The notes under the pieces: generated by a model | Databases searched by the model: none | What the model saw: only the letters and a program-made list of their open reading frames with translations | Told to the model about the DNA's origin: nothing | From: a virus | DNA length: 56,090 nt | Reading direction: 5' to 3' (one strand) | Virus record (IMG/VR): IMGVR_UViG_3300035698_006498 | Span: 1 to 56,090 of that record | Made by a program: the position numbers and the translations under genes | Part shown: in pieces, positions 11,337 to 56,090 of the stretch | Position numbering within the stretch: position 1 is the first letter of the stretch | Layout of the letters: each line of letters starts with the position of its first letter

Positions 11337-11749
11337 GGCTGGAACACTGTCGTCTCGATGATGGCCACCTCGTCCGCCACCTGATCAGGTGGCGGGGCCG
11401 GTAGCGTGATGATCAGGTCGGCGGTGCAGCCCGAGTATCCGGCCTTGTCAATGTAGTGGTCGAGCACTTCGGGGCTTGAAGCGATGCGACTTGTTTTGAC
11501 GAAATCCATCAACATGCCGATGTCGTGAGCCGTCAGTCCAATTGGGCGGCCTCCTGCCTTGGCGTAGACGTTCCACAGACCGGCAATTGTCCCGAAGTTG
11601 TCCTCAGTCGTGCCGTAGGCTTTGCGGCGGTCTTTGAGGATCGCACAGGCAGCATTGAATATGACTTCCTCGCGTCCTCCTGGCGCTACGCCTGACTGTC
11701 GGTTGGCGAACTGCCGGATCGCGTCTCTCATTTTATCAGTAGGGTCCAT
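11333..11749 (-). CDS. DUF6378-like phage protein
   Basis: 138 residues. The middle (KDRRKAYGTTEDNFGTIAGLW, DIGMLMDFVKTSRI, HYIDKAGYSGCTADL) reads like DUF6378, a helical family seen in many phages with no proven function, loosely similar to nucleotide pyrophosphohydrolase (MazG-type) folds. The neighbour is a nucleotide enzyme, which suits a role in the nucleotide pool, as inference. The C-terminal tail carries a palindrome copy read as PPPDQVAD. Confidence 0.7.
   Translation of the reverse strand: MDPTDKMRDAIRQFANRQSGVAPGGREEVIFNAACAILKDRRKAYGTTEDNFGTIAGLWNVYAKAGGRPIGLTAHDIGMLMDFVKTSRIASSPEVLDHYIDKAGYSGCTADLIITLPAPPPDQVADEVAIIETTVFQP
11377..11392. repeat. Dispersed palindrome, copy 8 (in gene)
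   Basis: Perfect CCACCTGATCAGGTGG, read as PPDQV in the proline-rich tail of the DUF6378-like protein. Confidence 0.9.
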
Positions 11750-21046: not shown

Positions 21047-22020
21047 TGGCCCTTCCCAAAGACATCCGAGACAGTATCGACCGTGGTGAAAAAGCCCAAC
21101 GCGCATTGCGCGGGGAGACTGATCCAGCGGCGAAACAGCCGGAACCAGAGGATACGGCTAAGCCCGCCCCCGCCAATAACGATGACAAACCCGCCGACAA
21201 TCAGCCGCCACCTGATAAGGTGGTACCCAAAGCAGATACGCCTCCGATACCAGACCCGGAACCTGATCCATGGGAACAGCGCTTCCGCACGCTGCAAGGC
21301 AAATACAATACCGAGATGCAGCGCGAGCGTGATGCACGCCAGGAACTTGAACAAAAGGTCAAGGAACTCAGGGAAAAAGCACCAGCGCCTGCGGCCATCG
21401 CCACCCCTGAACAGGTCGAAGAATTTGGCCCCGAGTTGATCGGGTTGATCGAACGTATGGCGACCGCCAAGGCCACAGAGCAGACTGCGGCCTTACAGGC
21501 TGAAGTCGAACGACTTAAGACCAGCCAGCAAAAAGTATCCGGCGATGTCTCGAACCTTCGTGCCAATGATGTGCAAGGACACTTGCGTCAGCGCTTCCCT
21601 GATTGGGCCAAACAGAATGGCGACCCCAAGTTCCATAAATGGCTCGATGTTCGTGACCCAATATCTGGCCACCACCGGCAGGATTTACTTGACCACGCCG
21701 TCACGAATGGTGATGTAAGTCGAACGATTGCCATCTTTGATGCCTTTCGCAGGGAAACAGGTTGGACTGCCAGCACTGAGCCAGAGCCAAAACCCAAGCT
21801 GGATACTTTGGCCGCTCCACCAAATGCTGGACGCACTGCCCCTCACACCGATCCGACCGAGCCTAAGCCAGTCGAAATGTTGTCCAGGTCCAGAATACGC
21901 GAGTTCAATCGCCAACTGGCCAATGGTCAACTCAAGCGCGGTGGTATGTCGGACAAGGAAATCTCCGATCATCTGAAACAAATTGATGTTGCCGTCAAAG
22001 AGGGCCGCATCACCGACTAA
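21046..22020 (+). CDS. Scaffold protein
   Basis: 324 residues. Highly charged, proline-rich N-terminal third, long coiled coil (EMQRERDARQELEQKVKELR and following), and a basic helix-loop C-terminus (SRIREFNRQLANGQLKRGG), the typical plan of capsid scaffolds whose C-terminus binds coat. Lies directly before the coat gene. ATG with AGAGGA five bases upstream. A palindrome copy in the proline-rich part is read as PPPDKVV. Confidence 0.82.
   Translation: MALPKDIRDSIDRGEKAQRALRGETDPAAKQPEPEDTAKPAPANNDDKPADNQPPPDKVVPKADTPPIPDPEPDPWEQRFRTLQGKYNTEMQRERDARQELEQKVKELREKAPAPAAIATPEQVEEFGPELIGLIERMATAKATEQTAALQAEVERLKTSQQKVSGDVSNLRANDVQGHLRQRFPDWAKQNGDPKFHKWLDVRDPISGHHRQDLLDHAVTNGDVSRTIAIFDAFRRETGWTASTEPEPKPKLDTLAAPPNAGRTAPHTDPTEPKPVEMLSRSRIREFNRQLANGQLKRGGMSDKEISDHLKQIDVAVKEGRITD
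21208..21223. repeat. Dispersed palindrome, copy 10 (in gene)
   Basis: CCACCTGATAAGGTGG, read as PPDKV in the disordered N-terminal part of the scaffold. Confidence 0.9.
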
Positions 22021-23026: not shown

Positions 23027-23056
23027 GTTGCCGTCACCTTATCAGGTGGCGGCAAC
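23027..23056 (+). terminator. Hairpin after the coat gene, built on a palindrome copy
   Basis: Arms GTTGCCGTCACCT and AGGTGGCGGCAAC form 13 pairs (one G-U) around the loop TATC. No T-run follows, so it probably attenuates or stabilises the coat mRNA end rather than stopping all transcription. Confidence 0.7.
23034..23049. repeat. Dispersed palindrome, copy 11
   Basis: TCACCTTATCAGGTGG; the outer T pairs with G in the transcript. Core of the post-coat hairpin. Confidence 0.88.
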
Positions 23057-26171: not shown

Positions 26172-26200
26172 GGGGGGCCACCTGATCAGGTGACCCCCTA
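26172..26200 (+). terminator. Hairpin with G5/C5 arms around a palindrome copy
   Basis: Arms GGGGGCCACCT-type and AGGTGACCCCC form about 11 pairs with one mismatch around GATC. Lies between the 46-residue gene and the nozzle gene; no T-run, so attenuation or RNA processing is more likely than full termination. Confidence 0.6.
26178..26193. repeat. Dispersed palindrome, copy 12
   Basis: CCACCTGATCAGGTGA, core of an extended hairpin. Confidence 0.88.
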
Positions 26201-31237: not shown

Positions 31238-34200
31238 TGGAACCTATCCAATCTGGTGGCACACGGGCCTACGGCGGTGGCACCACGTCCAGTCAGGGCG
31301 GTGGGATAAATTCCGGCCGCTTTGCTGACAGCAACTATGGCGGTGGCCTCAAAGACGTGATGGCCATGCTGCTGACCGGTGGCGTGAACGTCGCTGACGG
31401 ACTGACCACGCTGGCATCATTGCCAATCGGTAAAAGCCCTGAAGTCAACGAGTTCATGCAAGGGCTGCGCGAGCAAATCCAGAACAACGTCGCGTCACCA
31501 GCGCTTAAGTCCGCGATGCGCAAGACCTTCCTGACGACCGACGCCAATGATGCTGCTTGGGCTGATCCCCTGGCGTTGAGCAATATCATCATCTCGAACA
31601 TCCCAAGCATGCTGCCGTTTGCGGCGGCTGGGCGTCTTGGTGGAGCCATCACCAAAGGCACCAATGCCGCCAAGAACGCCATGGTTGGCGGTGCCGTGAT
31701 CGGCGGCACGATGACCGGTGGTGAGAGTGCCAGCGCGGCTACCCGCCAAGTGCGTGACGAGGGTGGTACCCGCGAACAGCAACAGCGTGCCGGTGCCGTA
31801 GGTGCCGTCTTGGGTGCACCAGTCGGTGCTGCTGCGGGTCCGCTACTCGGACGGGTTATCGCAGGGCCGTCGCAGGCAGGTGGCCGGTTGGCGCGTACTG
31901 CAAAAGGTATTGCCAAGACCAGCCCGGTCGAAGGCGTCGAGGAAGCTATCGGCAATGTGACCGGTCAACTTGGCGCGATCTCCCAGGTCGGCGGTTCGGT
32001 TGATGTGCTGCAAGCGCTTGATGAAGGCATTGCCGGTGCTATTGCCGGTGGTGCAATCGGTGGCACTATCTCAGCTTTTTCGTCTGCCGAAGACGCCGCC
32101 GTCAAAGCACATGCCGGTAAATCGGGATTACTCGATGATGCGGCACCACCGGTAGGCAAGACGGTGCCACGGCTACCACCACCTGATCAGGTGGCTCCTG
32201 GCCAGCCAGCACCGCAGGATGAGCGCGCTCGCCGTCAAGCCAACATGCAATCATGGCGCACCGGCAGACAGCCGGTTCAGGGCGAGCCTAAGCCGCTACC
32301 CGGCACCCTTGGTTATGAGGCTGGTGCGCGCCGCACGCAGGAGGGTCGCACGGTCGAGCGCACGGCGCTTCGCCAGCAAGAGGCCCAGGCTGCCCGTGCT
32401 GCCCGTGAGGAAGCATCGACCGCGTCTGGCCGTGGGCTGAGAGAGAATGTCGGACGGACCAGGGCGCAGCAGGAAGAACAGGCACGCAAGCGGCAGATAG
32501 GGCCACTGTTTGATCCTGATACCGAGCGTGAACTGGCACGTCAGAGGCGTGACGCCGAGGGCAGGCGCAAAAAGCAGGCAGAGGTCGATGCGTTCGACAA
32601 TGCCGAGCAGCAACCCCTTGGCCTTGGACCCGGCAGCGCGACCGCGCGTGATCCCGAACAACTGCCGCTGCGCACCCTTCCACCGGAGGCTGACACAGAT
32701 GCTGAACAGCGTTCTTTCCTTCGCGACAATCGTACTCGTAAGGGAGACGAAGGCCCTCGGTCTGGCGCGATTAAACCCATTGCTGGCACACCGGCTGGCG
32801 ATGCAGCACGCGCCCGAAAAGCCGAACGCGATGCGGCTAAAGGGGCTGTTGAAGAACAAGCCGACGTTGCTCCGGTTGCTGAACAAAAGCCTGCCAATAA
32901 ACCGCGCAAGGCAAAAGCGAAACCGGCTCCCGCACCTGCTGACGTAACACCTGCCAAGACGCCACCTGATCAGGTAGCGTCAGCCAAGGCCGCACGACCA
33001 AGACTGACTGTTTCTGTGAACGAAGAAACAGGTCAGACGGAAGTCACCTCGGATGCACCCATCGTCAGCACGTCGGCCAACCCGATTGGTCCGTCACGCT
33101 CGCGCAAGCCGGGTAAGACCATCAAGCTCGACCAAGCACTTGGCGAGACGCAGTCAGAGACTGTGATCGACGAAGACCGGGTGGTGAGTGAGGAAGCGGC
33201 AGACGCCACCGAGGGTGACACCATCAAGCGTGTTGCCAAGGCGTTGCAGCAGCGGGTGAACGACAGGCCCTATTACCGCAGTCGCCAGTTCCAGTCGGCC
33301 ATCCGCGCCATCGGCAAAACGATTGGCAACCAGTCGCTCGTGGACGTGGCCACAGAGGCGCGCGACGACAAGACGACAAATATGTCCGCCAAGGCCGTGG
33401 CTGAGTTTCTTAAGGCGATACCGGCAATCAACGAGGCAACCGGGCTTGATCTGGCAGCAGACCTTCAAGGGTCGCCAGCAGACATCGCCAAGGCACTGGC
33501 CGACGCTAACAATGCACTGCGCCAATCAGCGCCTAGCTCGGACACTGTGACCGAGACAAAGGTGGAGCCTGCTCAGACACCCCGTACCAAAAAGCTCCGG
33601 CAGGCAGTCGCCCGGTTCACCACGTTCCGCAACGCTGGTGGGCTGAAGGCTATCGAGGCACTGGAAGTAGCCGAGGCCAAGGCAAGGACAGCCGAGAAGA
33701 ACTCGGGCACCGCTCAGAGGATCGTCAGTGACGCCAAGCGAGCGCTGCCCCAGGCTGCGCGTGATGCCAGCCCCAAGATGGCTGAGAAGTTCGACGCTGC
33801 GGTTGAGGCCCTGCGCCAGGAGATTGCACCGAACACCAACATCCTGAAGTCGAAAGCGGCCAGCGCGAAGGGACGCAAGGTCCGCCGTGATCTGGTTGAG
33901 CTGGCAGAGAATGCTGATCGACGGGATGCTCGGCTGACGACCGCTCAGACCCAGCAGGCTGCACGACAGCTCGATAATCTGACGGCTGACGAAATCAACA
34001 TGCTTGCCAGTGACCGGGGGATCAAAACCGAAGGTCGTTCTCGTGATGCGGTGGCAGCAGACTTGGTGGGCTTTACGCCCAGGCGGTTCAATACCAAGGC
34101 AACCCTCAAGGGCACCATGCCGTCCGGTCAGCGCGTCTACCAGCTTGGCAGGGGATACGTGGTGGTCGCGGAGAGTGGCTTGGTCGAGCGGGTGGCCACC

Positions 34201-38456: not shown

Positions 38457-38472
38457 CCACCTGATCAGGTGG
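38457..38472. repeat. Dispersed palindrome, copy 15, at a convergent junction
   Basis: Perfect CCACCTGATCAGGTGGC directly after the stop of the rightward HNH gene and three bases before the stop of the leftward primase-helicase gene. A short T run follows on the plus strand. It could act as a bidirectional terminator for the two long operons. Confidence 0.85.
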
Positions 38473-41362: not shown

Positions 41363-41398
41363 GTGGAGGATGCCACCTGATCAGGTGACACCCTCCAC
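41363..41398 (-). terminator. Long RNA hairpin between two replication genes
   Basis: On the transcribed minus strand, arms GTGGAGGGTGTCACCT and AGGTGGCATCCTCCAC pair along 16 positions with two G-U pairs and a GATC loop; on the plus strand these two are mismatches. It follows the stop of the ssDNA-binding-like gene. No T-run, so attenuation or mRNA processing/stabilisation is likely. Confidence 0.7.
41373..41388. repeat. Dispersed palindrome, copy 16
   Basis: CCACCTGATCAGGTGA, core of the long hairpin above. Confidence 0.88.
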
Positions 41399-41403
41399 TA
41401 AGG

Positions 41404-43013: not shown

Positions 43014-45487
43014 CAGGTTTCAAACATCGACAGAAGGACGCCTTGCATTGATTGTTTCATGTGTAGCCTCCGGTATATATCAGTTTCGATTTTGCACCCT
43101 GCCAGTTGGACGATCAGTTGCTTCCTGGTCTGCCCCGGTCGGGTGATCCGTCCACAGGCTTGTTCGTATGTCTCAAGGCCGGGGAAGGCACAGTACCAGA
43201 TTATTGTATTCGCCGCAGTAAGGGTCAGCCCATGTGCCATACACTTCGGATGTGCGATCAGAACGCGAGGGGTATCATGGTGTTGGAACCGAGTGAATAT
43301 GCGGGAGCGCGCGGTAGCCGACACCTGTCCGTGGACCAACTCTGTCATGTGACCGCGTGATGTCAAGTAGTCATTTACCTGCTTGCACAGGGCGATGAAC
43401 GGCACGTAGATGATGACCTTGCCCTGACTGCCAGCGATGATCTGCTCGCATTTCTGCTGGCGTGGAGCGCTCGGCAACTGCCACATTTTCTTCTGTTCGC
43501 CGTAGACGAACCCGCTGGCGACTTGCAGCAATTTGTTGATCTTGACGCCTTCGTTGGCAGCCGTCACCTCACCGTCCTGAAACTGGACATGGTAGTGCTT
43601 CAGGATCGTTTCGTAGACCTTGCGTTGCAACTTGGTGAAATCGGCATGCTCCTGCACGGTCATGACTGGCGGCAGGTCAACACACTGGTTGCGCCGGAAA
43701 CGTATGGCGGGTTGCATCGCGTTGAACGCGGTGTTGACTGCGCCCTTGCGCGGCACCCACGAGAAGGTCGAGACTTGCATCATCAGGTCGCGGCGGAACC
43801 GGGTGTAGAAGTCGGGCACCGTCCAAGGCGTGATCAACCGGCATTGTGCCCAAACATCGGTTGGCTCGTTCGGCATGGGTGTGCCAGTCATGCCCCACAC
43901 GAAACTGCGCTGGTTGGTCACCTTGCGCATGGCCTTCCAGATCAGCGTGCGCGCCGTCCTGAAGACCGCCAGCTCGTCAATGACGACGGCCTGGATCGAA
44001 CGCTCTGCTGCCAGTTCATCGGCAATGACCCTGATACCTTCGTGGTTGATGATCAGAACATTCGCGTCAGAGCGCATCAGCCGCAGCCGCTTCTTTTTGT
44101 CACCGTGCAGGACGACCGGGTGCATGTTGGGGAATAGGGCCTCGATCTCCTGCTGCCAGACATTGCGCAGGGTCGAGAGCGGCGCGCTGATCAGGACGCG
44201 CTTGATCAGACCGATACCCATCAGGTAGTCGAGCGCGAATAGCGCGGCTCTGGTCTTGCCAGTGTTGCCGGTGCAGAACACGCATCCATTGCGCCGCAGC
44301 ACGAGGAAGGTGCTTGGCACCATAAAACAATACTTGTGGCCGTCAGGCATCGGCTCGCGCCAGATATTTTTAACCGGCCCATTCGCTGTGTTTCCCTGGA
44401 TACCACGAGGCTTGCCGTCGCGGCGGATATGGAGACACCAGTCAATGCCGTCATCCCGCCGTGCCATTGTCATGGTCGCAGATCGCCCGGTGCCGACGCA
44501 GGCATACTGAATGAAATCTACGTCAACCTTGCACCGTGACGAGTAAGAGACACCACTTGCCTTGCGCTGGCTGCCGTCCCAATACTGCACTTCATCGACA
44601 ATCACCTTTAGTTGTTCGGGCGTGCAGTCCCACCAACAGTCATTGAAGTTCTTGGTGTGCAGAGGTGGCTTGAATGCGAAAGCCATAAACCCCTTTGGCA
44701 GACAGGCGCGAGGGTTACACTCGATAGCCGCCTCGGCCAGCAACCGGGTTAACCGGGCAATCTTGCGTTTTTTCTTGATCCTGATCGTGCACCGGCCTGG
44801 GTAGTTCAGATATCCATCAGCATGAATGGCAACCTGCACCCGCAGTTGCGCCGATGACAGCGGCATGCCGGTGCCGCCAGGGGATATGAACGTGGTCGGG
44901 ATCAGGCCACGCCATCGGAACCCACGGTCCATGTAATCCTGTTCGATGTCCTCGGCAGGTTTGACATGAACGGCTCCACTGCGCGTGGTGTAGAGCACGC
45001 GGTGCTCGGGACTGAGCAGTTGGTCGATACCGTACTTGGTCTTGAACCGGATGCCCTCGGCGCACGGGCGCTTGACAAACTCGGTCGGCTCCACGAACGC
45101 AATTCGCCCGTCCAGGTTGTACTGCGCCACCTTGCCAGTCTGATAGTCAGCAATCCTCTGCCAGCCATCGGGCGACAGGTACTCGGTGTCAGCATCGACG
45201 CAGCCAATATCGTTCAGGCAGTAGGCCCGTGGCTCGATACACAGCTTGGCAGCGGTGATAATCTGTGCGTCGAATGGTTTGGAGTTGGCCCAATCGTAGT
45301 CGATCATGATCGGGGATGGCGGCTTGTATCCCAGGTTGCTCAATTTCTTGACGGTTGGCAAATCCCAGGGCAGCACCACACCGCCACCTGATAAGGTGGC
45401 GGTAGGGCTAATGCCTTTCGGCGCGTGGTCCAGCAACAACACGCGATGTGCCCTGCTGGCCTTTATCCGTGCGGAGGCGGTGGCCAT
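43013..45487 (-). CDS. SNF2/DEAD-type helicase interrupted by an intein
   Basis: 824 residues; about 511 after splicing. Extein: N-terminal YKPPSPIMIDYDW; the P-loop is completed only after intein removal (NDIG joined to TGKTRAAL); VVIDELAVF (motif II); WGMTGTPMPNEPTD (motif III); C-terminal GKVIIYVPF and a final CGRITRPGQTRKQ (motif VI). The intein occupies residues 96-408. The ATG overlaps the VRR-NUC gene by 80 bases; GTG codons after the palindrome copy (residue about 37) are an alternative start. It would act as a translocase in replication or recombination. Confidence 0.85.
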   Translation of the reverse strand: MATASARIKASRAHRVLLLDHAPKGISPTATLSGGGVVLPWDLPTVKKLSNLGYKPPSPIMIDYDWANSKPFDAQIITAAKLCIEPRAYCLNDIGCVDADTEYLSPDGWQRIADYQTGKVAQYNLDGRIAFVEPTEFVKRPCAEGIRFKTKYGIDQLLSPEHRVLYTTRSGAVHVKPAEDIEQDYMDRGFRWRGLIPTTFISPGGTGMPLSSAQLRVQVAIHADGYLNYPGRCTIRIKKKRKIARLTRLLAEAAIECNPRACLPKGFMAFAFKPPLHTKNFNDCWWDCTPEQLKVIVDEVQYWDGSQRKASGVSYSSRCKVDVDFIQYACVGTGRSATMTMARRDDGIDWCLHIRRDGKPRGIQGNTANGPVKNIWREPMPDGHKYCFMVPSTFLVLRRNGCVFCTGNTGKTRAALFALDYLMGIGLIKRVLISAPLSTLRNVWQQEIEALFPNMHPVVLHGDKKKRLRLMRSDANVLIINHEGIRVIADELAAERSIQAVVIDELAVFRTARTLIWKAMRKVTNQRSFVWGMTGTPMPNEPTDVWAQCRLITPWTVPDFYTRFRRDLMMQVSTFSWVPRKGAVNTAFNAMQPAIRFRRNQCVDLPPVMTVQEHADFTKLQRKVYETILKHYHVQFQDGEVTAANEGVKINKLLQVASGFVYGEQKKMWQLPSAPRQQKCEQIIAGSQGKVIIYVPFIALCKQVNDYLTSRGHMTELVHGQVSATARSRIFTRFQHHDTPRVLIAHPKCMAHGLTLTAANTIIWYCAFPGLETYEQACGRITRPGQTRKQLIVQLAGCKIETDIYRRLHMKQSMQGVLLSMFET
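44264..45202 (-). other. Intein with LAGLIDADG-type endonuclease region
   Basis: 313 residues, Cys1 (CVDADTEYLSPDGW) to Asn, followed by Thr as first C-extein residue. Splicing block B is LLSPEHRV (S-x-x-H). Endonuclease motifs IHADGYL and YWDGS give one aspartate each (residues 224 and 304 of the precursor). Block F/G ends FLVLRRNGCVFCTGN: the residue before Asn is Gly, where His is usual. It lies exactly in Walker A of the helicase, a frequent insertion point for inteins. Confidence 0.85.
45384..45399. repeat. Dispersed palindrome, copy 17 (in gene)
   Basis: CCACCTGATAAGGTGG, extended to 22 bp (CCGCCACC…GGTGGCGG). Read in the leftward gene as ACC TTA TCA GGT GGC (TLSGG), the orientation that avoids a TGA. 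Confidence 0.9.
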
Positions 45488-48346: not shown

Positions 48347-49015
48347 TCACCGCATGGTCCAGATTGGCACGGGTTTGCCATTCTCCATACCCGACAGCAC
48401 GCCGAAGCGGACGACATTTGTCAATACCGCCATACTCTCCACGCGCTGTTCATCGTCAAGGTAGGCTTTCGCCCCGTCTGGCAATGGTGCCGACCGTGTG
48501 ACCGTCTCCCATTTCCACAGTGCGCATATCTCAGGGAACACCGTGGCAACTTGCTTGGGTGTTTCCAATACCTCCAACATTTCGACAGAGTGTCGAATGG
48601 CTTGCCGCACAAGCTGCTCGTAAGTATTCACCGTCCAAAAGTATTTGATCCACCGCTTGTTTTCCACCAAGACCGAGTGGCGGTCCTTGACACGCACCCT
48701 GACATCCGGTGTGGTGATATCCACCTTGAACGGCCACTCGGTACCGTTCAGGTATGCCCGCAGGTTAATTATGTGGTACCGCGACCGCTCTAAAGTTGTC
48801 GCAGCGTCGAAGCAAGCCGGTGCGTCTTCCAGCCACTTCAACGCATCAGGCCCAATGAAATAATCGTATAGTTCATCGGGTGTTACCGGGCACTCGTGCC
48901 CAAACTGCCACCGTGCCGCAAGGACGGTTTGCTCCATTCGGCGGCGAAAGTTGTGGCGAAGGTCAGACAGGCGCTCTGCGCGCCTGTTCGCAAAATGGCT
49001 TGTACTCCTTGCCAT
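48347..49015 (-). CDS. Unidentified 222-residue protein
   Basis: Not recognised. Basic arginine-rich N-terminus (RRAERLSDLRHNFRRRME), central helical region, and beta segments near the end. Coupled (TGATG) to the VWA-protein gene upstream and just before the polymerase gene; may assist either. Confidence 0.6.
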   Translation of the reverse strand: MARSTSHFANRRAERLSDLRHNFRRRMEQTVLAARWQFGHECPVTPDELYDYFIGPDALKWLEDAPACFDAATTLERSRYHIINLRAYLNGTEWPFKVDITTPDVRVRVKDRHSVLVENKRWIKYFWTVNTYEQLVRQAIRHSVEMLEVLETPKQVATVFPEICALWKWETVTRSAPLPDGAKAYLDDEQRVESMAVLTNVVRFGVLSGMENGKPVPIWTMR

Positions 49016-50397
49016 CAGATATCATCCGCCACAATGTAATCGCCAAACGGCGGTTCCTGACTGCGCGCCTTACTCACCCAGATAACATCGTAGTCGGGCT
49101 TGGGTGGAAAGTTGCACTCCATATCCGTGAAGTAGATGAACTGATCCGGCTCCACGTTGTTTTCCTCGCACCACCTGAAAGGTGGCGCAAAGCTGGTGCC
49201 GCCGCCACCACCATGGGTGAACTTGAACACCTCGATCAGGTCATCCTCGGTCGTCGTTAGCGGGTCGATGTCCGTCGTGTAGTGCACGCGGGCATCGCAA
49301 TAGATGCAGACAACACGCTCTGGCCGCAGACTGGCGATGATTGGCAAAGCCTCGCTCACGAACGTCGCGAATTCATCCCGACTGACACTGCCAGAAGTAT
49401 CGAACGCCAGCACGAGTGTGCCAGGAGCCTCACCCTTCTTGCGCGGCAGGATCACACCGAATGTCGCCAGCCGCCGACGATGCGGACGGTTCCAGTCGTT
49501 GGCGTCATCACCGAACATGCGAGTGATGGACATGCGGAGGATGTCCCGCCAGTCGATCTTAGGCTCGACCATCTGCTCGATCATGCGCTCGAAGTCGGTG
49601 GGCAAATGACCGCGCGTCTTTGCCATGGATGCAGCCCGTCGAAAGTCTGCCTTGACCTCGGCATCTATCTGCCCGGTATCTGCCTGATCCTGATCGGACC
49701 CGTACCCGCTCGTGGGCTTCTCCCCTGGCTCCTGCACGTCGTCATCCAGTTGCTCGCCCACGCCATGGCCAGAGCGAAGTCTGTTCTTGACGCCCTCTAT
49801 GTCCTCGTCGGGAGGGCCACCGGCACCATCATCGTCGCCGTCTTGCGGCTTGCCATCACCCGGCTCACCCTTGTCGGAGGATGCACCGCTATCAGGTTCT
49901 TTGGGTGGCATTATCTCGTACAGCCGACGATAGACTTCCTCCTGGGTGTCGGTCATGGTCCCGTATTCAGGGTCATGCAGCACACCTTTGAGTAATGGCA
50001 GGCCAGCGTGCAGCAGCATGTCGTTGATCACCAGATCGGCCGCGACGTTCATAAGTTTTGGGTTGAACGGCAGTCCGCTGACAGTGCCCTGGCGATGGTA
50101 AAGCTTGTTGCGCAGGACATGACGGAAGGCGACGTGCAGCGTCTCGTGGCACCACGGGAACAACAGGTCTTTGATCGACAGCGCACGCACCGCGTCGGGG
50201 TTCCACATGAACGAGTAGTGGTCGGTCGCAGCAATGGGGATCATGGGGTGCGATACCCACCGCTGCTTGACCTTGCCAATGGACAGATCGGCAAAGAAGG
50301 TGTGCCGCTGCATGATGATCGCCCGCACGGCGGTCAGCTTGGCTTCGAGTTTGTCGATGTTTTTGATGGTGCTAGGGTCGAGGGAAATGATAGCCAT
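49015..50397 (-). CDS. VWA-domain protein with HExxH motif (MoxR partner)
   Basis: 460 residues; start MAIISLDPST has AAAGGA nine bases upstream. CHETLHVAFRH (83-93) is an HExxH zinc-binding motif of the DUF2201/VWA-like metallopeptidase family; residues 165-245 are a disordered acidic linker; LVLAFDTSGSVS (MIDAS DTSGS, 333-337) is a VWA domain with further THGGGGGTSF and FTDME segments. Pairs with the MoxR ATPase at 52411. MoxR-VWA pairs act as chaperones or metal-insertion/remodelling complexes. Its target in phage infection is unknown. Confidence 0.82.
   Translation of the reverse strand: MAIISLDPSTIKNIDKLEAKLTAVRAIIMQRHTFFADLSIGKVKQRWVSHPMIPIAATDHYSFMWNPDAVRALSIKDLLFPWCHETLHVAFRHVLRNKLYHRQGTVSGLPFNPKLMNVAADLVINDMLLHAGLPLLKGVLHDPEYGTMTDTQEEVYRRLYEIMPPKEPDSGASSDKGEPGDGKPQDGDDDGAGGPPDEDIEGVKNRLRSGHGVGEQLDDDVQEPGEKPTSGYGSDQDQADTGQIDAEVKADFRRAASMAKTRGHLPTDFERMIEQMVEPKIDWRDILRMSITRMFGDDANDWNRPHRRRLATFGVILPRKKGEAPGTLVLAFDTSGSVSRDEFATFVSEALPIIASLRPERVVCIYCDARVHYTTDIDPLTTTEDDLIEVFKFTHGGGGGTSFAPPFRWCEENNVEPDQFIYFTDMECNFPPKPDYDVIWVSKARSQEPPFGDYIVADDI
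49171..49185. repeat. Dispersed palindrome, copy 18 (degenerate, in gene)
   Basis: CCACCTGAAAGGTGG, 15 bp with one centre base missing; read as PPFRW in the VWA protein. Could be chance similarity. Confidence 0.55.
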
Positions 50398-50423
50398 GGT
50401 GTGTAGTCCTTTGAGTTGGAGCG

Positions 50424-50439
50424 CCACCTGATCAGGTGA
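50424..50439. repeat. Dispersed palindrome, copy 19, in a leader
   Basis: CCACCTGATCAGGTGA, extended to ten-pair arms (AGCGTCACCT on the transcribed strand, one G-U). Sits between the stop of the upstream gene and the ribosome-binding site of the VWA-protein gene. Confidence 0.9.
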
Positions 50440-50447
50440 CGCTTAGG

Positions 50448-51368
50448 TTATCGGTCAAGGCCCTTGAGACTGGCACGCAGTTCAGCCGCAATGGTCCTGG
50501 CCCGCTCTGCGGCTTCCTCGCGCAGGTTCGGGTTATCGCGGATCACGTCGAGTTTGTGCTTGAGCACGTCGTGCTTGACCTCGGCCAGCAGGTCGGCAAG
50601 CTCAGTGTCCCGGCCATCGTTCATAGCCTCGGCAAGGATCGTGTTGGTCTTGACGTTCTCGTAGATGCCCTTGCGCAAGACAGCCTCGGGATCGCCATAG
50701 CGGTCGGCCATAATCTCCAGGGGCTTGATGTTCCGCTCGTACAGTTCGATGGTCGCCACCTTGATGCTTTCTGCCATCCGGTCGCTGATCTGGTGGTTCA
50801 GTGCCTCGGCCATGCCCTTGGGCAGGGTGGCGTTCAGTCTGGCAAAGCCCTGGCCTTCGGGGATCGGGGCATAGCTGTGCTCGATGTAATAGCGTGCCTT
50901 GATCTGGTCGGGCGTCGGGTAGTCGTCGGGGTCGAACAGGTCGCCCAATTGCAACCGGGACTGCTCGATACGTTCGAGGTACACGTCGAGCAATTCGGTC
51001 ACGGCGGCGACCAGCGCCTCCTGGTGGCCCTCAAGCGTGCGCTTGTGGGTCATGAACAGTTTGGTCGGCAGCAGGCGAGGGCCATTGGTCTGCGACTTCA
51101 TCGAGCCGAAGCGCATGGTGATCAGCCGATGCTTCTCACGCAAGTCATCGATCACGCGGTTGGCAGCCCGCAGCTCGCCGTCCGCGCCCTTGAGCAGGCT
51201 CTTGGTCACGCGGGTGGACTTCGCCACGGCCTTGGCGTCCACCTCAAGCCGCGACCGCGCAGAGTTGTCATTGATCTCGCCGGTCCATTTGCCAGCGGTC
51301 ACTTCGACCAGCATGCAGGAGGAACGCAGCGCCTCCACAAGTTCGTTTGTGATATCCAGTTCAGCCAT
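50448..51368 (-). CDS. Unidentified 306-residue protein in the MoxR-VWA locus
   Basis: Mostly helical, with long charged helices (KVATIELYERNIKPLEIMAD, C-terminal coiled-coil-like part). It may belong to the DUF3150 type often coded between MoxR and VWA genes, but this is by context and shape, not a clear match. Start has TTGGAGA at good distance and follows a strong promoter, so it would be highly expressed. Confidence 0.65.
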   Translation of the reverse strand: MAELDITNELVEALRSSCMLVEVTAGKWTGEINDNSARSRLEVDAKAVAKSTRVTKSLLKGADGELRAANRVIDDLREKHRLITMRFGSMKSQTNGPRLLPTKLFMTHKRTLEGHQEALVAAVTELLDVYLERIEQSRLQLGDLFDPDDYPTPDQIKARYYIEHSYAPIPEGQGFARLNATLPKGMAEALNHQISDRMAESIKVATIELYERNIKPLEIMADRYGDPEAVLRKGIYENVKTNTILAEAMNDGRDTELADLLAEVKHDVLKHKLDVIRDNPNLREEAAERARTIAAELRASLKGLDR

Positions 51369-51388
51369 CAGTTATCTCCAAGTTGGTA

Positions 51389-51404
51389 CCACCTGATCAG
51401 GTGG
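51389..51404. repeat. Dispersed palindrome, copy 20, in a leader
   Basis: Perfect CCACCTGATCAGGTGG between promoter and ribosome-binding site of the gene at 50448-51368. Confidence 0.92.
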
Positions 51405-51438
51405 CGGGGTTGCGACCGGTGTCTCCCGATATTCTAAT

Positions 51439-51467
51439 GTTATAGCACATTTAGAGTAGTTTGTCAA
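51439..51467 (-). promoter_or_regulatory. Sigma70-type promoter A, overlaps the thyX stop
   Basis: Minus strand: TTGACA (51462-51467), 17-bp spacer, TATAAC (51439-51444). The thyX stop codon is inside the -35 box. Leader shares long identity with promoter B (ACACCGGTCG and CCCCGCCACC). Confidence 0.85.
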
Positions 51468-52306
51468 GGGGTCGTTGTTTCACCAAGAAGTTGCTTAATT
51501 TTGTCGTAGAACTCAGTTTTCTCTGTACCTAACAACACGCTGTACTGTGCTATCAGAGACATAAATGTATCGGAGCCGCCAAGCGCTCTGATTGCAGCAG
51601 CCATCGCGGCTTTCTCTTGTCTACTTAACGTCACCGCTTCGAGTACATAATCTCGGAAAGCCTGCATGCTCACCGGCCATTGCTGTTCAGCGATGATCAT
51701 CATCTGCTCGGCAAACTGCCTGATTTCCTTTTGGGCGTGCGGGTCAGAGCGCAGTGCCAGGAAGTGCATCAGGTTGTGGAGGTTCGTTTTCCAGACGAAC
51801 TTGGTCTGTGTCGCCAGCGGCAGGACGGTTCGCGCGATCTCGGGTGCCACGTCATGCCGCATCATTTCTTCGTAGGTCTGACCGCTCAGCCGCATGAGCG
51901 TCATCATCTTGGCACGCAGTGTGTCATCCTCGACGGGTGCCAAGGCCCTCCCCTGTTTGTTTGACACAGGCCGTTTCGGTAGTTCCTCTGGCAGGAAAAA
52001 CTCGCTGACCGGCATGTCGGTGTACCTGCCAGAGATTTCATTCATGCTGGCCGTGCGGTGTCTGACCCACTGACGTGCCACGTAGATGGGACACTTCACG
52101 TACCACTTTGTTTCCACCATTTCAAATGGTGATGTATGCCTGTTCCGCATGAGGTAGCGCAACAATCGCACGTCATCATAAAACTTTGTTACCTTGTCAC
52201 CGCCATACGACACACGCGCTGCGTCGGTTATATCCTTGTCAGAACCCATGTAATCTACCAGTCGGATGGACCCGATCTGGTTTACCTGAATGACTTTCGT
52301 GTCCAT
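51464..52306 (-). CDS. thyX: Flavin-dependent thymidylate synthase
   Basis: 280 residues. ThyX signature RHRTASMNEISGRY (82-95) is complete, matching RHRxxSxNExSxRY. Makes dTMP from dUMP with FAD and methylene-tetrahydrofolate, complementing the dCTP deaminase-like gene. Ribosome-binding site TTGGAG. A hairpin with six T lies just upstream and may attenuate it. Confidence 0.95.
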   Translation of the reverse strand: MDTKVIQVNQIGSIRLVDYMGSDKDITDAARVSYGGDKVTKFYDDVRLLRYLMRNRHTSPFEMVETKWYVKCPIYVARQWVRHRTASMNEISGRYTDMPVSEFFLPEELPKRPVSNKQGRALAPVEDDTLRAKMMTLMRLSGQTYEEMMRHDVAPEIARTVLPLATQTKFVWKTNLHNLMHFLALRSDPHAQKEIRQFAEQMMIIAEQQWPVSMQAFRDYVLEAVTLSRQEKAAMAAAIRALGGSDTFMSLIAQYSVLLGTEKTEFYDKIKQLLGETTTP

Positions 52307-52316
52307 TGTTCACTCC

Positions 52317-52356
52317 AAAAAAGACAGCCGGGACCGGACTACACATGGCCCCGGCT
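52317..52356 (-). terminator. Terminator-like hairpin just before thyX
   Basis: Minus strand arms AGCCGGG and CCCGGCT (7 bp, with further inner pairs) and TGTC followed by six T, immediately before GGAG of thyX. Suggests partial termination between the MoxR gene and thyX. Confidence 0.65.
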
Positions 52357-52410
52357 GCAAATCAAGTTGGACGCTGTGCGGGTGGGCGCAGCGTTAACCC
52401 CAACTTGGAG

Positions 52411-53520
52411 CTATACGCTCACGTCCATCAGGGCCAGCAGCAAATCCTCGTTCTCAGCGAGGTATGCCGCAAACTCAGGCCGGGACATGAGCGAGTTGTT
52501 CCGATTGACAGCAGCCGCGACACCGACGACCTGAAACTCGTTCGGCATGCGGGATAAAAACGCGAACACCTTCGCCGCGTTCTTTCGCTCGGCATTGTAG
52601 GCAACCAGCGAGGTCAGCGCAAACAGCACGTCAGGCCGGTCGAAGTTGACCGTCACGCCCTCCGGGTCTGCCATGATCTCGTCAAAGGTCAGCAGCCCCT
52701 CCATGCCAAGGAAGTTGATAAACTCGGCAGCGACACCCTCCCCAAGCCAGCCCTCGGCAATGACACGGCCCTCGAAGTTGACCGGGATTTTGTCCTCGTT
52801 GCCAACCCGGCCAATCGTGAGCAACTGATCGACACAGCGCATGAACGAGCGCGGCGTGGCGAACGGCTGGTCGGTGATGGTCGGCTGTTCACCGAAAAAC
52901 AAGTTCGGCCGGAAGTTGGCAAAGGCCACTGCCATTGGGTGGATGTCGTTGACCGTGGCCCACCGGGTCCACGCCTTCACGTCAGGGCGGATGTTCCACT
53001 GCGCCATGCGGTTGATCAGGTAGGGTGGCCGCTTGGTCGAGTTGTTCTTCGACTTGAGCGGATTACTGGCAGCGATCACCATGACATGCTCAAAGCCGCA
53101 TTCTTCCAGGTTCAAGGCATTGATGCGCCTCTCATCCAGCAGAGGTGCGACCGCCTTGAGAACGTCGGGTGCCGCCTTGTCAATTTCGTCCAGAAACAGG
53201 ATCATGAACTTGCAGTCTGCCATTTCTCGGGCAGTCGGGAACCACTGCGGCGCATACTGAAACACGCGGCGGGTGCCGTCTTCGTCGGTCACCGGCATGT
53301 TGAAGCCGCCGACCTCGGGTGCCTCGTAGAGCGACAGGTGTATGGTGCGCAGCAGCACCTTGGCACCGAGCAGTTGCTCGATGTCGTTGCGGAGCGCCTT
53401 GATCATCGTCGTCTTGCCGACACCAGCGCCGCTGACGAGTTCGACAGGGTGCTTGTTGTAGCCGTCGTACAGGTCGAGCAGCATGCGGCGAGCCTGATAG
53501 AGTGTGGCTTCGATTGCCAT
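52411..53520 (-). CDS. MoxR-type AAA+ ATPase
   Basis: 369 residues. Walker A GAGVGKTT (31-38), Walker B MILFLDEID (106-114), PLLDERRIN arginine-bearing segment, and the MoxR-like SNPLKSKNNSTKRPPYLINR sensor region. Such ATPases work with VWA proteins, encoded here at 49015. Probably remodels a protein complex. First gene after promoter B. Confidence 0.85.
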   Translation of the reverse strand: MAIEATLYQARRMLLDLYDGYNKHPVELVSGAGVGKTTMIKALRNDIEQLLGAKVLLRTIHLSLYEAPEVGGFNMPVTDEDGTRRVFQYAPQWFPTAREMADCKFMILFLDEIDKAAPDVLKAVAPLLDERRINALNLEECGFEHVMVIAASNPLKSKNNSTKRPPYLINRMAQWNIRPDVKAWTRWATVNDIHPMAVAFANFRPNLFFGEQPTITDQPFATPRSFMRCVDQLLTIGRVGNEDKIPVNFEGRVIAEGWLGEGVAAEFINFLGMEGLLTFDEIMADPEGVTVNFDRPDVLFALTSLVAYNAERKNAAKVFAFLSRMPNEFQVVGVAAAVNRNNSLMSRPEFAAYLAENEDLLLALMDVSV

Positions 53521-53541
53521 GGTAGTATCTCCAAGTTTTCA

Positions 53542-53557
53542 CCACCTGATCAGGTGG
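53542..53557. repeat. Dispersed palindrome, copy 21, in a leader
   Basis: Perfect CCACCTGATCAGGTGG between promoter B and the ribosome-binding site of the MoxR gene. Confidence 0.92.
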
Positions 53558-53591
53558 CGGGGTTACGACCGGTGTTCCCCGATCTTTGAGT

Positions 53592-53620
53592 ATTGTAGCA
53601 CAAAACAAGTAGTTTGTCAA
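53592..53620 (-). promoter_or_regulatory. Sigma70-type promoter B for the MoxR gene
   Basis: Minus strand: TTGACA (53615-53620), 17-bp spacer, TACAAT (53592-53597). Flank CGACCCC before the -35 is shared with promoters A and C. Confidence 0.88.
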
Positions 53621-53669
53621 GGGGTCGATAAGTCACGGTTAGCAGCTTCAAGTTTGTTCAGTGGTTGCC

Positions 53670-53840
53670 TCACACGATAAAGATGTTCCTAATCACCCAT
53701 CCGCTTTTGATGAACGCGATGAGTGCCCACGCCCCGAGCGACAGGAACTGTAGGGTCGCGTGGCCTTTGGTTATTTTGTAGAGGAAGATTGGCACTGCGA
53801 TATAGGCGACGAGTACCATAATTGTCTGTTCGATTGTCAT
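53670..53840 (-). CDS. 56-residue membrane protein
   Basis: Start MTIEQTIMV with GGAG nine bases upstream. Two hydrophobic segments (IMVLVAYIAVPIFLY and FLSLGAWALIAFI) separated by a short polar loop. Small two-helix membrane protein; holin-like in shape only. Lies inside another frame of the gene at 53689-53913. Confidence 0.6.
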   Translation of the reverse strand: MTIEQTIMVLVAYIAVPIFLYKITKGHATLQFLSLGAWALIAFIKSGWVIRNIFIV

Positions 53841-53913
53841 CACGTATTGCTCCAATGATTAACACCGTCCCAGCGACGGCGAGTAGACTTGCCAGTATGT
53901 TCAGCCACAGCAT
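53689..53913 (-). CDS. Possible 74-residue overlapping membrane protein
   Basis: Starts MLWLNILASLLAVAGTVLII, one membrane helix, then a polar arginine-rich tail that fully overlaps the frame at 53670-53840. GGAAG upstream and coupling to the preceding small gene favour real translation of at least the first part. The tail may be only a shadow. Confidence 0.4.
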   Translation of the reverse strand: MLWLNILASLLAVAGTVLIIGAIRDDNRTDNYGTRRLYRSANLPLQNNQRPRDPTVPVARGVGTHRVHQKRMGD

Positions 53914-53914
53914 G

Positions 53915-54043
53915 TCATAGGCTTCCGACGATGGCAGGGACCGCTCTGATTTCGCGGCCACAGTTCTCCGCAGGATCATCGATAATCAACAAGCCCAACA
54001 ACATGCCGCCCATGATCCCAAGGGCTAAATCAAAGAGGCTCAT
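53915..54043 (-). CDS. 42-residue membrane protein
   Basis: Starts MSLFDLALGIMGGMLLGLLI; one helix, then an acidic and polar tail. GGAG eight bases upstream, ATGA overlap with the gene before and stop immediately before the next ATG. Function unknown. Confidence 0.55.
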   Translation of the reverse strand: MSLFDLALGIMGGMLLGLLIIDDPAENCGREIRAVPAIVGSL

Positions 54044-54294
54044 CGGTAGAACTCCAGGTGCGGGTACTGGTCCACGAGCAGCATCTTGGCACGAGTGCGT
54101 GTCCTGGCACGGACAGCGTGTGCCAGGGTGCCGTCGATGGTCTGAGCGCAGTAAAGGTACAGGCCGCTGCCGTCGTCAGTGACAGGCACATAACGGAGGT
54201 AGGCAAAGACCTTACCTTCCTTCGGTACCCGGTGCGTGGCGCTGAACTTCATGCGGCGATGAATACGACGGGTGAGTATCGAGTGGTGTAACAT
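54040..54294 (-). CDS. Basic 84-residue protein
   Basis: Start MLHHSILTRRIHRRMKF with perfect GGAGG five bases upstream. Very basic N-terminus and a beta-alpha body (RYVPVTDDGSGLYLYCAQT). Nucleic-acid binding plausible. Overlaps the 3' end of the next upstream gene in another frame. Confidence 0.65.
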   Translation of the reverse strand: MLHHSILTRRIHRRMKFSATHRVPKEGKVFAYLRYVPVTDDGSGLYLYCAQTIDGTLAHAVRARTRTRAKMLLVDQYPHLEFYR

Positions 54295-54382
54295 TGTAGC
54301 CTCCAATAATAGCAGTGATACGGATCGCGATAGCGGCGAACAGAAGTACCAGCCCAAGACTGAACTGGTTTCTGGTAGTCAT
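54212..54382 (-). CDS. 56-residue membrane protein whose ribosome-binding site may be a palindrome arm
   Basis: Starts MTTRNQFSLGLVLLFAAIAI, a membrane helix, then a polar tail. The only upstream Shine-Dalgarno-like sequence is AGGTGG, the right arm of palindrome copy 22, a few bases before ATG. ATGA overlap with the 50-residue gene. Confidence 0.5.
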   Translation of the reverse strand: MTTRNQFSLGLVLLFAAIAIRITAIIGGYNVTPLDTHPSYSSPHEVQRHAPGTEGR

Positions 54383-54531
54383 GCCGCCACCTGATCAGGT
54401 AGTAGATCAAGTATCTCGTTCAGTCTTTCGGCCATCGTTCGTTTCCTTGGGTGCGTGTTGTGTAGGTTACCGTCGTTGGTGGAAACCGCATGGCCAGATA
54501 CTCTTGCTGGCCACGCGACAACTTTCGTCAT
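54379..54531 (-). CDS. 50-residue protein ending in a palindrome-encoded tail
   Basis: Starts MTKVVAWPARVSGHAVSTND with AAGGGA seven bases upstream; ends LNEILDLLPDQVAA, where PDQV comes from palindrome copy 22. An inner ATG (MAERLNEI) with AAGGA could give an 18-residue form. No match recognised. Confidence 0.6.
   Translation of the reverse strand: MTKVVAWPARVSGHAVSTNDGNLHNTHPRKRTMAERLNEILDLLPDQVAA
54387..54402. repeat. Dispersed palindrome, copy 22 (end of gene)
   Basis: CCACCTGATCAGGTAG; codes LPDQVA and its arm AGGTGG precedes the next ATG. Confidence 0.88.
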
Positions 54532-54576
54532 GTTAAAATCCCTTAGTCCGTTTGGTTTGGCTGGATTGCCAGACGC

Positions 54577-54924
54577 TCACTTGTGGGAGCGTTTCGACCG
54601 CTTGCGACTGACACGCCATGCACTCTTGATCTGGTGGTCCCGTTCCATCTGGTCGGCAGGTGGTGCCAGCACGTCAGGCAACTGGTCGAATTTGAGCGTC
54701 ACCTGATGCTCGCCATGCTTGAGGATCATGGCCCCCCGAAAGGGGCCTTCTCCAAGGTAGCGAGTGCTGCACTTCATGCCTGAACCTTTAATCTCGGGGC
54801 ACAGCCGGTAGAGTGCATACAACCGCCTGAGTTTCTTGAACGCCTCGATCTTCTGGTATTCCAGGTCGATCAGCTTCTCCATTTTGGCGTCGAGTTTATC
54901 CAGCAGCTCGGGGTCAAGCGTCAT
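54577..54924 (-). CDS. Unidentified 115-residue protein
   Basis: Start MTLDPELLDKLDAKMEKL, helical and charged first half, then a small beta region (GAMILKHGEHQVTLKF) and basic tail (RVSRKRSKRSHK). ATG overlaps the end of the gene before it. Not recognised. Confidence 0.65.
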   Translation of the reverse strand: MTLDPELLDKLDAKMEKLIDLEYQKIEAFKKLRRLYALYRLCPEIKGSGMKCSTRYLGEGPFRGAMILKHGEHQVTLKFDQLPDVLAPPADQMERDHQIKSAWRVSRKRSKRSHK

Positions 54925-55198
54925 CGAGCCGAAACCACCAGTCTGCAAGTTGGCCAAAATCCTCGACCACGAAATAATCATCGTATTCTTGGTCATTGAC
55001 TTTATTGGCCGCGTCCAAATTTTCGCCGAAAACATCCAGGGCACGATTGACGCAAATCGGCATGATATAATCGTCGTGGGATTTAGGCGGGAAATCCTCG
55101 GTAACAGAGTTATGACCAGAGAATTTACTTGCGGCATCATGCGGCGTTTCCGCCTCGATGATCTGGATGTCGGTTTCGCTCGACACGTAATACAGCAT
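54914..55198 (-). CDS. Acidic 94-residue protein
   Basis: Excellent ribosome-binding site (AGGAGACGATAA-ATG). Starts MLYYVSSETDIQIIEAETPH; strongly acidic, with alpha-beta pattern and Trp-rich end (DWWFRLDDA). Acidic small phage proteins often mimic DNA or inhibit host proteins, but nothing specific is visible. Confidence 0.65.
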   Translation of the reverse strand: MLYYVSSETDIQIIEAETPHDAASKFSGHNSVTEDFPPKSHDDYIMPICVNRALDVFGENLDAANKVNDQEYDDYFVVEDFGQLADWWFRLDDA

Positions 55199-55255
55199 TT
55201 ATCGTCTCCTGTCCTCGACCAGCCCCTTGCCGGTGCTGCGCGCAAAATTGCTCAT
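55199..55255 (-). CDS. Possible 18-residue coupled micro-ORF
   Basis: MSNFARSTGKGLVEDRRR. The ATG overlaps the preceding stop as ATGA, and the micro-ORF spans the ribosome-binding site of the next gene. It may only relay ribosomes. Confidence 0.35.
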   Translation of the reverse strand: MSNFARSTGKGLVEDRRR

Positions 55256-55785
55256 ACCAGACCTGCCTTGTGTGCGAGTTTGAGCATTTGGGTTTCGTCA
55301 AACTTCGGCACCCGCAGGTCGAAGTGTGCAGCGAACGCTATCAGGTTGGTGCGCAAATCCTTGGCACGGTCGAGGTGATTGAGCGCATATTTCTGCGAGC
55401 GTAAACCCGCCTCGATCATGCTATGGTAGCGCCCAAGCAGGTGGTGCAGGTGGTTAACGTCAGGAGTTCTGGTCAGCCAAGGCGCACCGTCGAATAAGAA
55501 GGTGTTCTGGTTGGTGCCGCCCATCTTGCGCACCGCACGGAACCGCGCCGTGTAGTGCTTGCCCTTGGTCGTCATGGTCGTGTCCTGATCGTTGAGCAGG
55601 AAGACCAGACCCTTGTTGCCGTCTGGCAGCGCCCTGCCAATCAACAGGCGGTAAGAGTAGAGGTCGCCGTTCACACACCAGAGGTTGCCATTGGCAGTCT
55701 GGAGTTCATGCCCGGCTGGCCACCCGTCAGCAACATACTGGTTGGTGTGGCTACCAGCGGCATAGTCGATCTTGGGGTTGTTCAT
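55252..55785 (-). CDS. Unidentified 177-residue protein, first gene after promoter C
   Basis: Not recognised. Beta-rich first half (WCVNGDLYSYRLLIGRALPD, then FLLNDQDTTMTTKGKHYTAR), helical second half with HLHHLLGRYH. AGAGGA site upstream. Leads the small-gene operon, so expected to be made early and in quantity. Confidence 0.7.
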   Translation of the reverse strand: MNNPKIDYAAGSHTNQYVADGWPAGHELQTANGNLWCVNGDLYSYRLLIGRALPDGNKGLVFLLNDQDTTMTTKGKHYTARFRAVRKMGGTNQNTFLFDGAPWLTRTPDVNHLHHLLGRYHSMIEAGLRSQKYALNHLDRAKDLRTNLIAFAAHFDLRVPKFDETQMLKLAHKAGLV

Positions 55786-55806
55786 CGTGTAGTCCTCTAA
55801 GTTGCA

Positions 55807-55822
55807 CCACCTGATCAGGTGG
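55807..55822. repeat. Dispersed palindrome, copy 23, in a leader
   Basis: Perfect CCACCTGATCAGGTGG between promoter C and the ribosome-binding site of the gene at 55252-55785. Confidence 0.92.
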
Positions 55823-55856
55823 CCGGTTTGACTGGTTAAATTTCCAGCTTATTTAA

Positions 55857-55885
55857 ATTATAGCACACTTTTACTTGTTTGTCAA
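55857..55885 (-). promoter_or_regulatory. Sigma70-type promoter C, consensus
   Basis: Minus strand: TTGACA (55880-55885), 17-bp spacer, TATAAT (55857-55862), both boxes perfect. Starts nine bases after the stop of the gene at the right edge. Confidence 0.92.
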
Positions 55886-55893
55886 GGGGTCGT

Positions 55894-56090
55894 TTATTTG
55901 GGTTTACCGTACTCTTTTTCGTATAACTTACGTTGCCTGTTGTACTCAGCCTCTATGTTGTCAGGGTGATTTGAACCATTACTCTCGAAAACCACCTTGC
56001 GATACACGGCGATGTCAGGATAGTCGAACTCACCCTCGGGCTGCTCGGGCGTCGTGCGCTCATCGTCGGAGATGTCGAGGCGTTGTGAGG
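55894..56090 (-). CDS. C-terminal part of an unidentified gene, cut by the window edge
   Basis: Open for 65 codons to the stop; contains EFDYPDIAVYRKVVFESNGS and ends NRQRKLYEKEYGKPK. Acidic upstream part, basic end. Frame does not join to the partial gene at position 1 if the ends are simply linked. Confidence 0.6.
   Translation of the reverse strand, partial: SQRLDISDDERTTPEQPEGEFDYPDIAVYRKVVFESNGSNHPDNIEAEYNRQRKLYEKEYGKPK

Follow-up and report, generated by a model that had tools for sequence, protein, structure and literature searches.

What does the short palindrome do that follows each of three promoters in the virus record IMGVR_UViG_3300035698_006498? This IMG/VR record was analysed over its whole length of 56,090 bases (hereafter, the window). 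The original prediction described a repeated expression cassette in which the palindrome, CCACCTGATCAGGTGG, forms a hairpin at the 5′ end of the transcript that may protect early mRNAs or block read-in. We find that the palindrome is a dyad dispersed over the whole window and over related phages, and that it varies in the manner of a protein-binding site on double-stranded DNA. The portal, capsid, internal virion protein and terminase of the window are of podovirus type. The portal is 39% identical to that of Rhizobium phage RHph_TM3_14A, to which the structural genes are related, and HMO-2011, CRP and pelagiphages are more distant relatives of the same four proteins. No close relative of the window was found when sought through its ATPase or portal.

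At up to three mismatches, CCACCTGATCAGGTGG occurs 22 times in the window (Table 1), compared with a mean of 0.46 and a maximum of 4 in shuffled sequences, and the consensus of the copies is YRCCACCTKNNMAGGTGGYR. Some copies are in leaders and intergenic gaps, one overlaps a stop codon, one is between convergent stops, and others are inside open reading frames (ORFs). Only four of the 22 had been noticed originally, and the palindrome is not bound to the promoter cassette. At least six copies lie well inside ORFs (those listed are at 2321, 11377, 16057, 21208, 32179, 32962 and 45384), where the translation is PPDQV or, in the frame that GATC would close with a stop, ATLSGGG through a TTATC variant.

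The cassettes themselves are as originally described. CGACCCCTTGACAAAC is found without mismatch at three minus-strand places (51459, 53612 and 55877) and has no other match with fewer than three mismatches; none of 100 shuffled sequences reached the same number of matches at up to three mismatches. In all three promoters, CGACCCCTTGACAAAC is followed after a 17-nt spacer by TATAAC, TACAAT or TATAAT, and the scores against the sigma-70 consensus are 12 of 12 for promoter C and 11 of 12 for the other two. Cassettes A and B have the predicted leader, ACACCGGTCG..CCCCGCCACC, in common, and a 102-bp block is common to A, B and C (identities in Table 1 are from BLAST between 600-bp stretches). Because this one block stands at three places with unrelated flanks, the proposed copying of the cassette by recombination is well supported. 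The centre of the palindrome lies 42 bp downstream of the −10 box in all three promoters (three cases compared with 0.20 in random placements), and its end lies 20–21 nt before the start codon. The predicted order of palindrome, (C)AACT(T/C)-type stretch and ribosome-binding site is present in A, B and C and also before the promoterless VWA gene. The related ribosome-binding region suggested for the gene at 6381 was confirmed by an exact second copy of GGACTACACAC at 6384 (minus strand).

Related phages carry the dyad in letters of their own. The carriers are RHph_TM3_14A, several IMG/VR contigs, including capsid relatives, and two Bradyrhizobium-borne relatives, with 18–76 copies per record. 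RHph_TM3_14A contains no copy of the window's dyad letters and approximately 44–55 copies of GTTACC-N5/6-GGTAAC. At up to two mismatches, GTTACC-N6-GGTAAC was found 50 times in G002, 41 in G007, 27 in G013, 13 in G005 and 9 in G006 (our labels for individual records), compared with 0–2 matches for the reversed control. Other letters are used in G004 (TCACTA-N4-TAGTGA), G001 (TTACCG-N3-CGGTAA) and G003 (GTTACA-N5-TGTAAC). Motif models of the even-spaced families fall into one frame, with G-pyrimidine-pyrimidine-A-C-pyrimidine at −9 to −4 about a common centre, and the same centre and half-site were obtained for all eight genomes or contigs modelled. The architecture common to the relatives, GYYACY-N6-RGTRRC, has 32 matches at up to one mismatch in the window, 48 in RHph_TM3_14A, 64 in G007, 36 in G002 and 27 in C42, compared with 3–7 in Markov controls. 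It is at control level in four more distant phages (HMO-2011, phiM6, CRP-3 and RHph_N3_19) and gives no excess in G001, the spacing of which is odd.

The way in which the sites vary distinguishes a DNA site from an RNA hairpin. We compared 286 distinct sites from eight genomes or contigs. The half-sites do not covary: their complementarity is at or below the expectation for independence at nearly all core positions, a result to be read with the caveat that motif thresholding may itself drive the two half-sites slightly apart. Mismatches on the sense strand comprise 145 G-U and 137 A-C pairs, which are thus equally frequent, with the caveat that sense strands were set from ORFs by a simple rule. 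In all 20 non-redundant copies of the window, a purine precedes the core and a pyrimidine follows it, including A..C combinations that do not pair. Between G013 and G002, which are about 79% identical, the arms of 22 aligned sites are 93.9% identical and the flanks 80.4%. Independent halves, equal frequencies of G-U and A-C and conserved arms are characteristic of double-stranded DNA that a dimer binds rather than of an RNA hairpin.

The sites are also confined to phage DNA. A genome scan revealed a relative in Bradyrhizobium sp. 139 (G020), which apparently extends over the ends of two contigs, C111 and C166, that we infer to be adjacent; the prophage spans C111:25004-61049 and C166:1-25158. 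A large serine integrase gene ends at position 25165 of C166 and adjoins a bacterial methyltransferase gene, and an S49 peptidase gene and glyQ lie on the other side (gene names at the boundaries are our reading of the translations). The 17-bp direct repeat GGCCATGCCGTTACCTC is present at both boundaries, and the target of the prophage is apparently inside the S49 peptidase gene. All eight exact GTTAC-N8-GTAAC places of the 7.9-Mb genome are on the two prophage-bearing contigs; the site pattern is at control level in 25 kb of host flank, and the sites stop at the prophage ends. In a second Bradyrhizobium genome, a 60.6-kb relative on a contig of its own has 31 sites at up to two mismatches.

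Placement relative to genes was analysed in RHph_TM3_14A, for which gene positions were taken from the public annotation. Its sites are concentrated at gene boundaries, with 18 of 44 centred at −60 to +10 of a start codon (4.6 in random placements) and 16 of 44 at −10 to +60 of a stop codon (4.3), and 23 of 44 lie well inside a gene, where 38.6 were expected. The AGGT arm is often in a Shine-Dalgarno role, as it is at 54387 in the window. Since the sites are symmetric, number in the tens, lie at gene boundaries and downstream of promoters, are phage-specific and drift in their letters between relatives, we propose that they are dispersed operators of a phage regulator, acting as stoperator-like roadblocks, a proposal that we regard as roughly evenly balanced between right and wrong. 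The palindrome would be a two-fold symmetric site of roughly 18–20 bp on double-stranded DNA, with about 20–75 copies per phage, for a dimeric phage-encoded protein; we infer this protein, its binding and the repression that it would exert. In cassettes A–C, the site would lie in the transcribed leader about 35 bp past the expected start, and a bound dimer would be a roadblock to RNA polymerase leaving the strong host-type promoters. In the manner of the stoperators of cluster A mycobacteriophages, the copies at the borders of genes and within them would keep read-through silent. This repression would probably belong to prophage maintenance or to the timing of early and late expression. In this form, the predicted block to read-in retains a place, as a DNA-bound protein could be the block.

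The main rival is a structural task throughout the genome, such as DNA compaction, partition, packaging or the organisation of replication, for a phage protein that reads the sites. We consider this role possible and hold it only tentatively. The sites are more evenly spread than random in RHph_TM3_14A, G002, G013 and G004, where no more than 1.4% of random placements reach the same evenness, and copies are spread through both structural and replication genes. With up to 76 copies, the dispersed dyad also resembles the target of a coating or organising protein. Against the structural role, evenness is absent in G005, G006 and G007 and marginal in the window, the link to gene starts and ends is strong, the spacing to the three promoters is fixed, and no ParB-like gene was present among the window genes scanned. 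Another tentative idea is that a widespread lineage of HMO-2011-like phages has an undescribed family of dimeric proteins that would coat or organise the whole genome through 20–76 evenly placed palindromes, with drifting specificity, and would couple transcription control with genome organisation.

Several observations weigh against the operator proposal. A repressor needs no such evenness of spacing, and many sites are deep inside genes. Neither the window nor RHph_TM3_14A has an integrase like that of the prophage, and thus lysogeny is not established for them. No binding protein was found: scans of most window genes with Pfam, PHROGs and NCBIfam gave no convincing repressor, and no repressor of the L5 gp71 type turned up in these general family scans, which included no search aimed at gp71. 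The only helix-turn-helix candidate seen in the window (37–477) is a weak lead, as neither the clade nor the phage collection contains a relative. The early family f1 is the conserved first early protein, of about 250 amino acids (RHph_TM3_14A 18372–19100, L009, and L141–L146), with an all-helical model (predicted local distance difference test score 82), and is present in several site-bearing phages. As a binder, f1 was set aside: it has no PDB match, the viral library gave nothing but its relatives, and no homologue was detected in the window. Two other approaches were also abandoned, as the two-winged-helix protein at the prophage end (C111 27759–28685) has no homologues in the set, and too many genes fit the pattern of exclusive presence in site-bearing phages.

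It is improbable that the palindrome works in RNA, as a 5′ hairpin that gives early mRNAs stability or a shield against read-in. The cassette leaders do fold into CCACCU-GAUC-AGGUGG stems; leaders A–C fold no better than their shuffles (z −0.25 to −1.27), and an Rfam search gave no match. At 23034, 41373 and 50424, the dyad is at the tip of 10–16-bp RNA stems that are far better than those of shuffles (z −4.0, −3.8 and −3.3), and these three sites may have a local RNA role. Past the core, the flanks of the window copies pair somewhat more than re-paired controls do (p 0.004 at 10 positions), but the window alone shows this; there is no extra pairing beyond the core in RHph_TM3_14A. Covariation is absent over the 286 sites, G-U is not preferred over A-C, and copies lie past stop codons, between convergent genes and within ORFs. 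Protection of early mRNAs is not supported as a general function of the palindrome, most copies of which are outside promoter leaders. Two of the three long hairpins, at 41358–41400 (16 bp, z −3.8) and 23025–23060 (13 bp, z −4.0), are intergenic and near-perfect, with the dyad at the tip, and may be places of RNA processing in addition to being DNA sites.

It is very unlikely that the palindrome is an element of translation, in which a Shine-Dalgarno sequence, the AGGT arm, pairs with an anti-sequence of its own and the hairpin or a bound protein controls the access of ribosomes. In RHph_TM3_14A, about ten sites with GGAGGTAAC-type arms are centred 10–15 nt before a start codon, and the site at 54387 in the window and the f1 starts of L142 and L143 are placed likewise. 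However, cassettes A–C have a ribosome-binding site of their own past the palindrome, half of the sites of RHph_TM3_14A are in genes or past stops, and RNA covariation is absent; it is more likely that the operator also serves for ribosome binding at places where it fits by chance. We give equally little credence to a selfish palindromic element (like repetitive extragenic palindromic (REP) elements, miniature inverted-repeat transposable elements or Rickettsia palindromic elements) spread by insertion, including into in-frame linkers (PPDQV): there are many copies, several of them in frame in disordered linkers, together with a tandem duplication of a 41-bp unit and the copied 102-bp cassette, but the SNF2 site is on aligned residues of homologues rather than facing a clean gap (the linker sites are uninformative), orthologous site positions are retained between G013 and G002, and the same architecture with other letters in relatives fits point evolution of a binding site, not transposition.

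Table 1. Coordinates of dyad sites, promoter cassettes and associated genes in the window.
Feature	Position	Strand	Remarks
Dyad CCACCTGATCAGGTGG, cassette A	51389..51404		Centre 42 bp past −10; 20 nt before start of 50448-51368
Dyad, cassette B	53542..53557		Centre 42 bp past −10; 21 nt before ATPase start
Dyad, cassette C	55807..55822		Centre 42 bp past −10; 21 nt before start of 55252-55785
Dyad, 1 mismatch	50424..50439		Ahead of VWA gene, no promoter; AGCG/CGCT flanks lengthen possible RNA hairpin
Dyad	54387..54402		AGGTGG arm few nt before ATG (minus strand), Shine-Dalgarno position
Dyad	2321..2336		Inside ORF 1362-2501, reads PPYQV
Dyad	3258..3273		Intergenic
Dyad	5167..5182		In 715-bp AT-rich intergenic region 4630-5343
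Dyad	5269..5284		In tandemly duplicated 41-bp unit, first copy
Dyad	5310..5325		In second copy of 41-bp unit
Dyad, 3 mismatches	6485..6500		Upstream of gene starting near 6381
Dyad	8697..8712		On stop codon of 7721-8704
Dyad	11377..11392		Inside ORF 11333-11749 near 3′ end, PPDQV
Dyad	16057..16072		Inside ORF 15987-16913 near 5′ end; ATLSGGG frame, TTATC variant without stop
Dyad	21208..21223		Inside ORF 21043-22020, proline-rich linker, PPDKV
Dyad	23034..23049		Between capsid gene and following gene; tip of 13-bp RNA hairpin
Dyad	26178..26193		Upstream of gene at 26211; GGGGG/CCCCC flanks
Dyad	32179..32194		In linker of 2317-aa ORF
Dyad	32962..32977		In linker of 2317-aa ORF
Dyad	38457..38472		Precisely between two convergent stop codons
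Dyad	41373..41388		Between two minus-strand genes; tip of 16-bp RNA hairpin
Dyad	45384..45399		Near 5′ end of SNF2 helicase ORF; no insertion vs homologues
Promoter A	51439..51467	-	TTGACA-17-TATAAC
Cassette block A	51373..51474	-	Promoter, leader ACACCGGTCG, palindrome, AACTTGGAGA; 102 bp common to B, C
Promoter B	53592..53620	-	TTGACA-17-TACAAT
Cassette block B	53526..53627	-	83% to A
Promoter C	55857..55885	-	TTGACA-17-TATAAT, 12/12 consensus
Cassette block C	55795..55894	-	76% to A, 73% to B
AAA+ (AAA_5, MoxR-like) ATPase gene	52411..53520	-	Behind cassette B
DUF2201 metallopeptidase plus VWA gene	49015..50397	-	The VWA gene of the text
306-aa gene	50448..51368	-	Behind cassette A; no family above cut-off
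177-aa gene	55252..55785	-	Behind cassette C; no family found

The cassette region is a minus-strand series of replication and accessory genes (AAA+ ATPase, ThyX, DUF2201/VWA protein, DNA polymerase A, SNF2 helicase and DUF927). The MoxR-like AAA+ ATPase, the DUF2201/VWA protein and the 306-aa protein (49015–53520) form a set that is partly conserved among site-bearing phages, and it is exactly this set that is driven or preceded by the cassettes. Between the ATPase and ThyX genes, a terminator-like hairpin is followed by a T run on the minus strand (GCAGCCGGGGCC..GGTCCCGGCTGTCTTTTTT, 52312–52350), and therefore the ATPase behind cassette B would be a separate transcription unit. A second terminator-like hairpin with a T run is present on the minus strand at 5200–5240 (CCCCGGTAGCCACGTGCTGCCGGGTTTTTTT). 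In the AT-rich 715-bp intergenic region, which also contains three dyad sites, TACCCACTAGTTATT or its reverse complement occurs five times in an iteron-like arrangement with long inverted repeats (4764–4915); this region may be the origin of replication or the principal control region. The 2317-aa protein (31237–38190), whose linkers hold two dyad sites, matches two families, that of virion RNA polymerases in its N-terminal part and a DarB-like antirestriction family in its C-terminal part, with LPD39 in the middle. N4-type hairpin promoters for a virion RNA polymerase were rejected as an account of the sites, as this protein matches that family only N-terminally and the symmetric sites have no directional flank. 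Other features are collagen-like GPX repeats in a tail-region gene (17240–17551) and long acidic repeats (41529–41742) within a conserved 403-aa gene (41404–42615).

Among known systems, the cassette resembles PeSL of T4-type phages, reportedly described by Arbiol et al. in 2010 (cited in PMC4177764), which is said to be a mobile intergenic cassette of a promoter and an adjacent inverted repeat. In both, promoter and inverted repeat are copied as a unit between unrelated flanks, here as the 102-bp block at three places. Unlike in PeSL, the stem-loop structure is not kept (no covariation and no wobble bias), and the inverted repeat occurs much more widely than the promoter and shows the evolution of a DNA-binding site; moreover, the phage group is HMO-2011-like or rhizobial and of podovirus type by portal, capsid and terminase, not T4-type. 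REP and Rickettsia palindromic elements are short dispersed palindromes, some of them in frame within proteins; the dyads differ in showing no sign of insertion, lineage-specific letters and conserved positions. The C1 repressor of phage P1 has many operators over the genome, which are asymmetric and largely promoter-linked. By analogy, the dyads may likewise be many scattered operators of one phage repressor, but they are symmetric. No C1 homologue came up in the analysis, which included no search aimed at one. Text searches, limited to open-licence papers, found no description of such sites for this phage group.

Very few phages, namely cluster A mycobacteriophages and P1, are known to have operators dispersed over the whole genome. 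In the cluster A mycobacteriophages (L5, TipsytheTRex), stoperators are repressor sites present more than 20 times per genome, some at promoters and most at gene boundaries (PMC9283540, PMC6550527). Each is an asymmetric 13-mer that a monomer binds and that is oriented with transcription, and the letters diverge among related phages together with immunity (PMC9283540, PMC6550527). The dyads are similar in that tens of near-identical, phage-specific sites (22 in the window and 18–76 in relatives) occur in genomes of similar size with diverging letters. The dyads are enriched at gene boundaries and linked to three promoters, but about half of those in RHph_TM3_14A are intragenic. They further differ from stoperators as near-perfect palindromes in up to about 76 copies, often within genes, in podovirus-type relatives of HMO-2011. 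Because stoperator sites are asymmetric and oriented with transcription, the dyads do not belong to the stoperator system as defined. If the dispersed-operator reading is true, they would be a second, independent case of how a dispersed-operator network arises and changes specificity, in a symmetric and more numerous version common to a lineage of rhizobial and uncultured phages and an integrated Bradyrhizobium prophage. An isolated phage, RHph_TM3_14A, and a sequenced lysogen make this reading directly testable.

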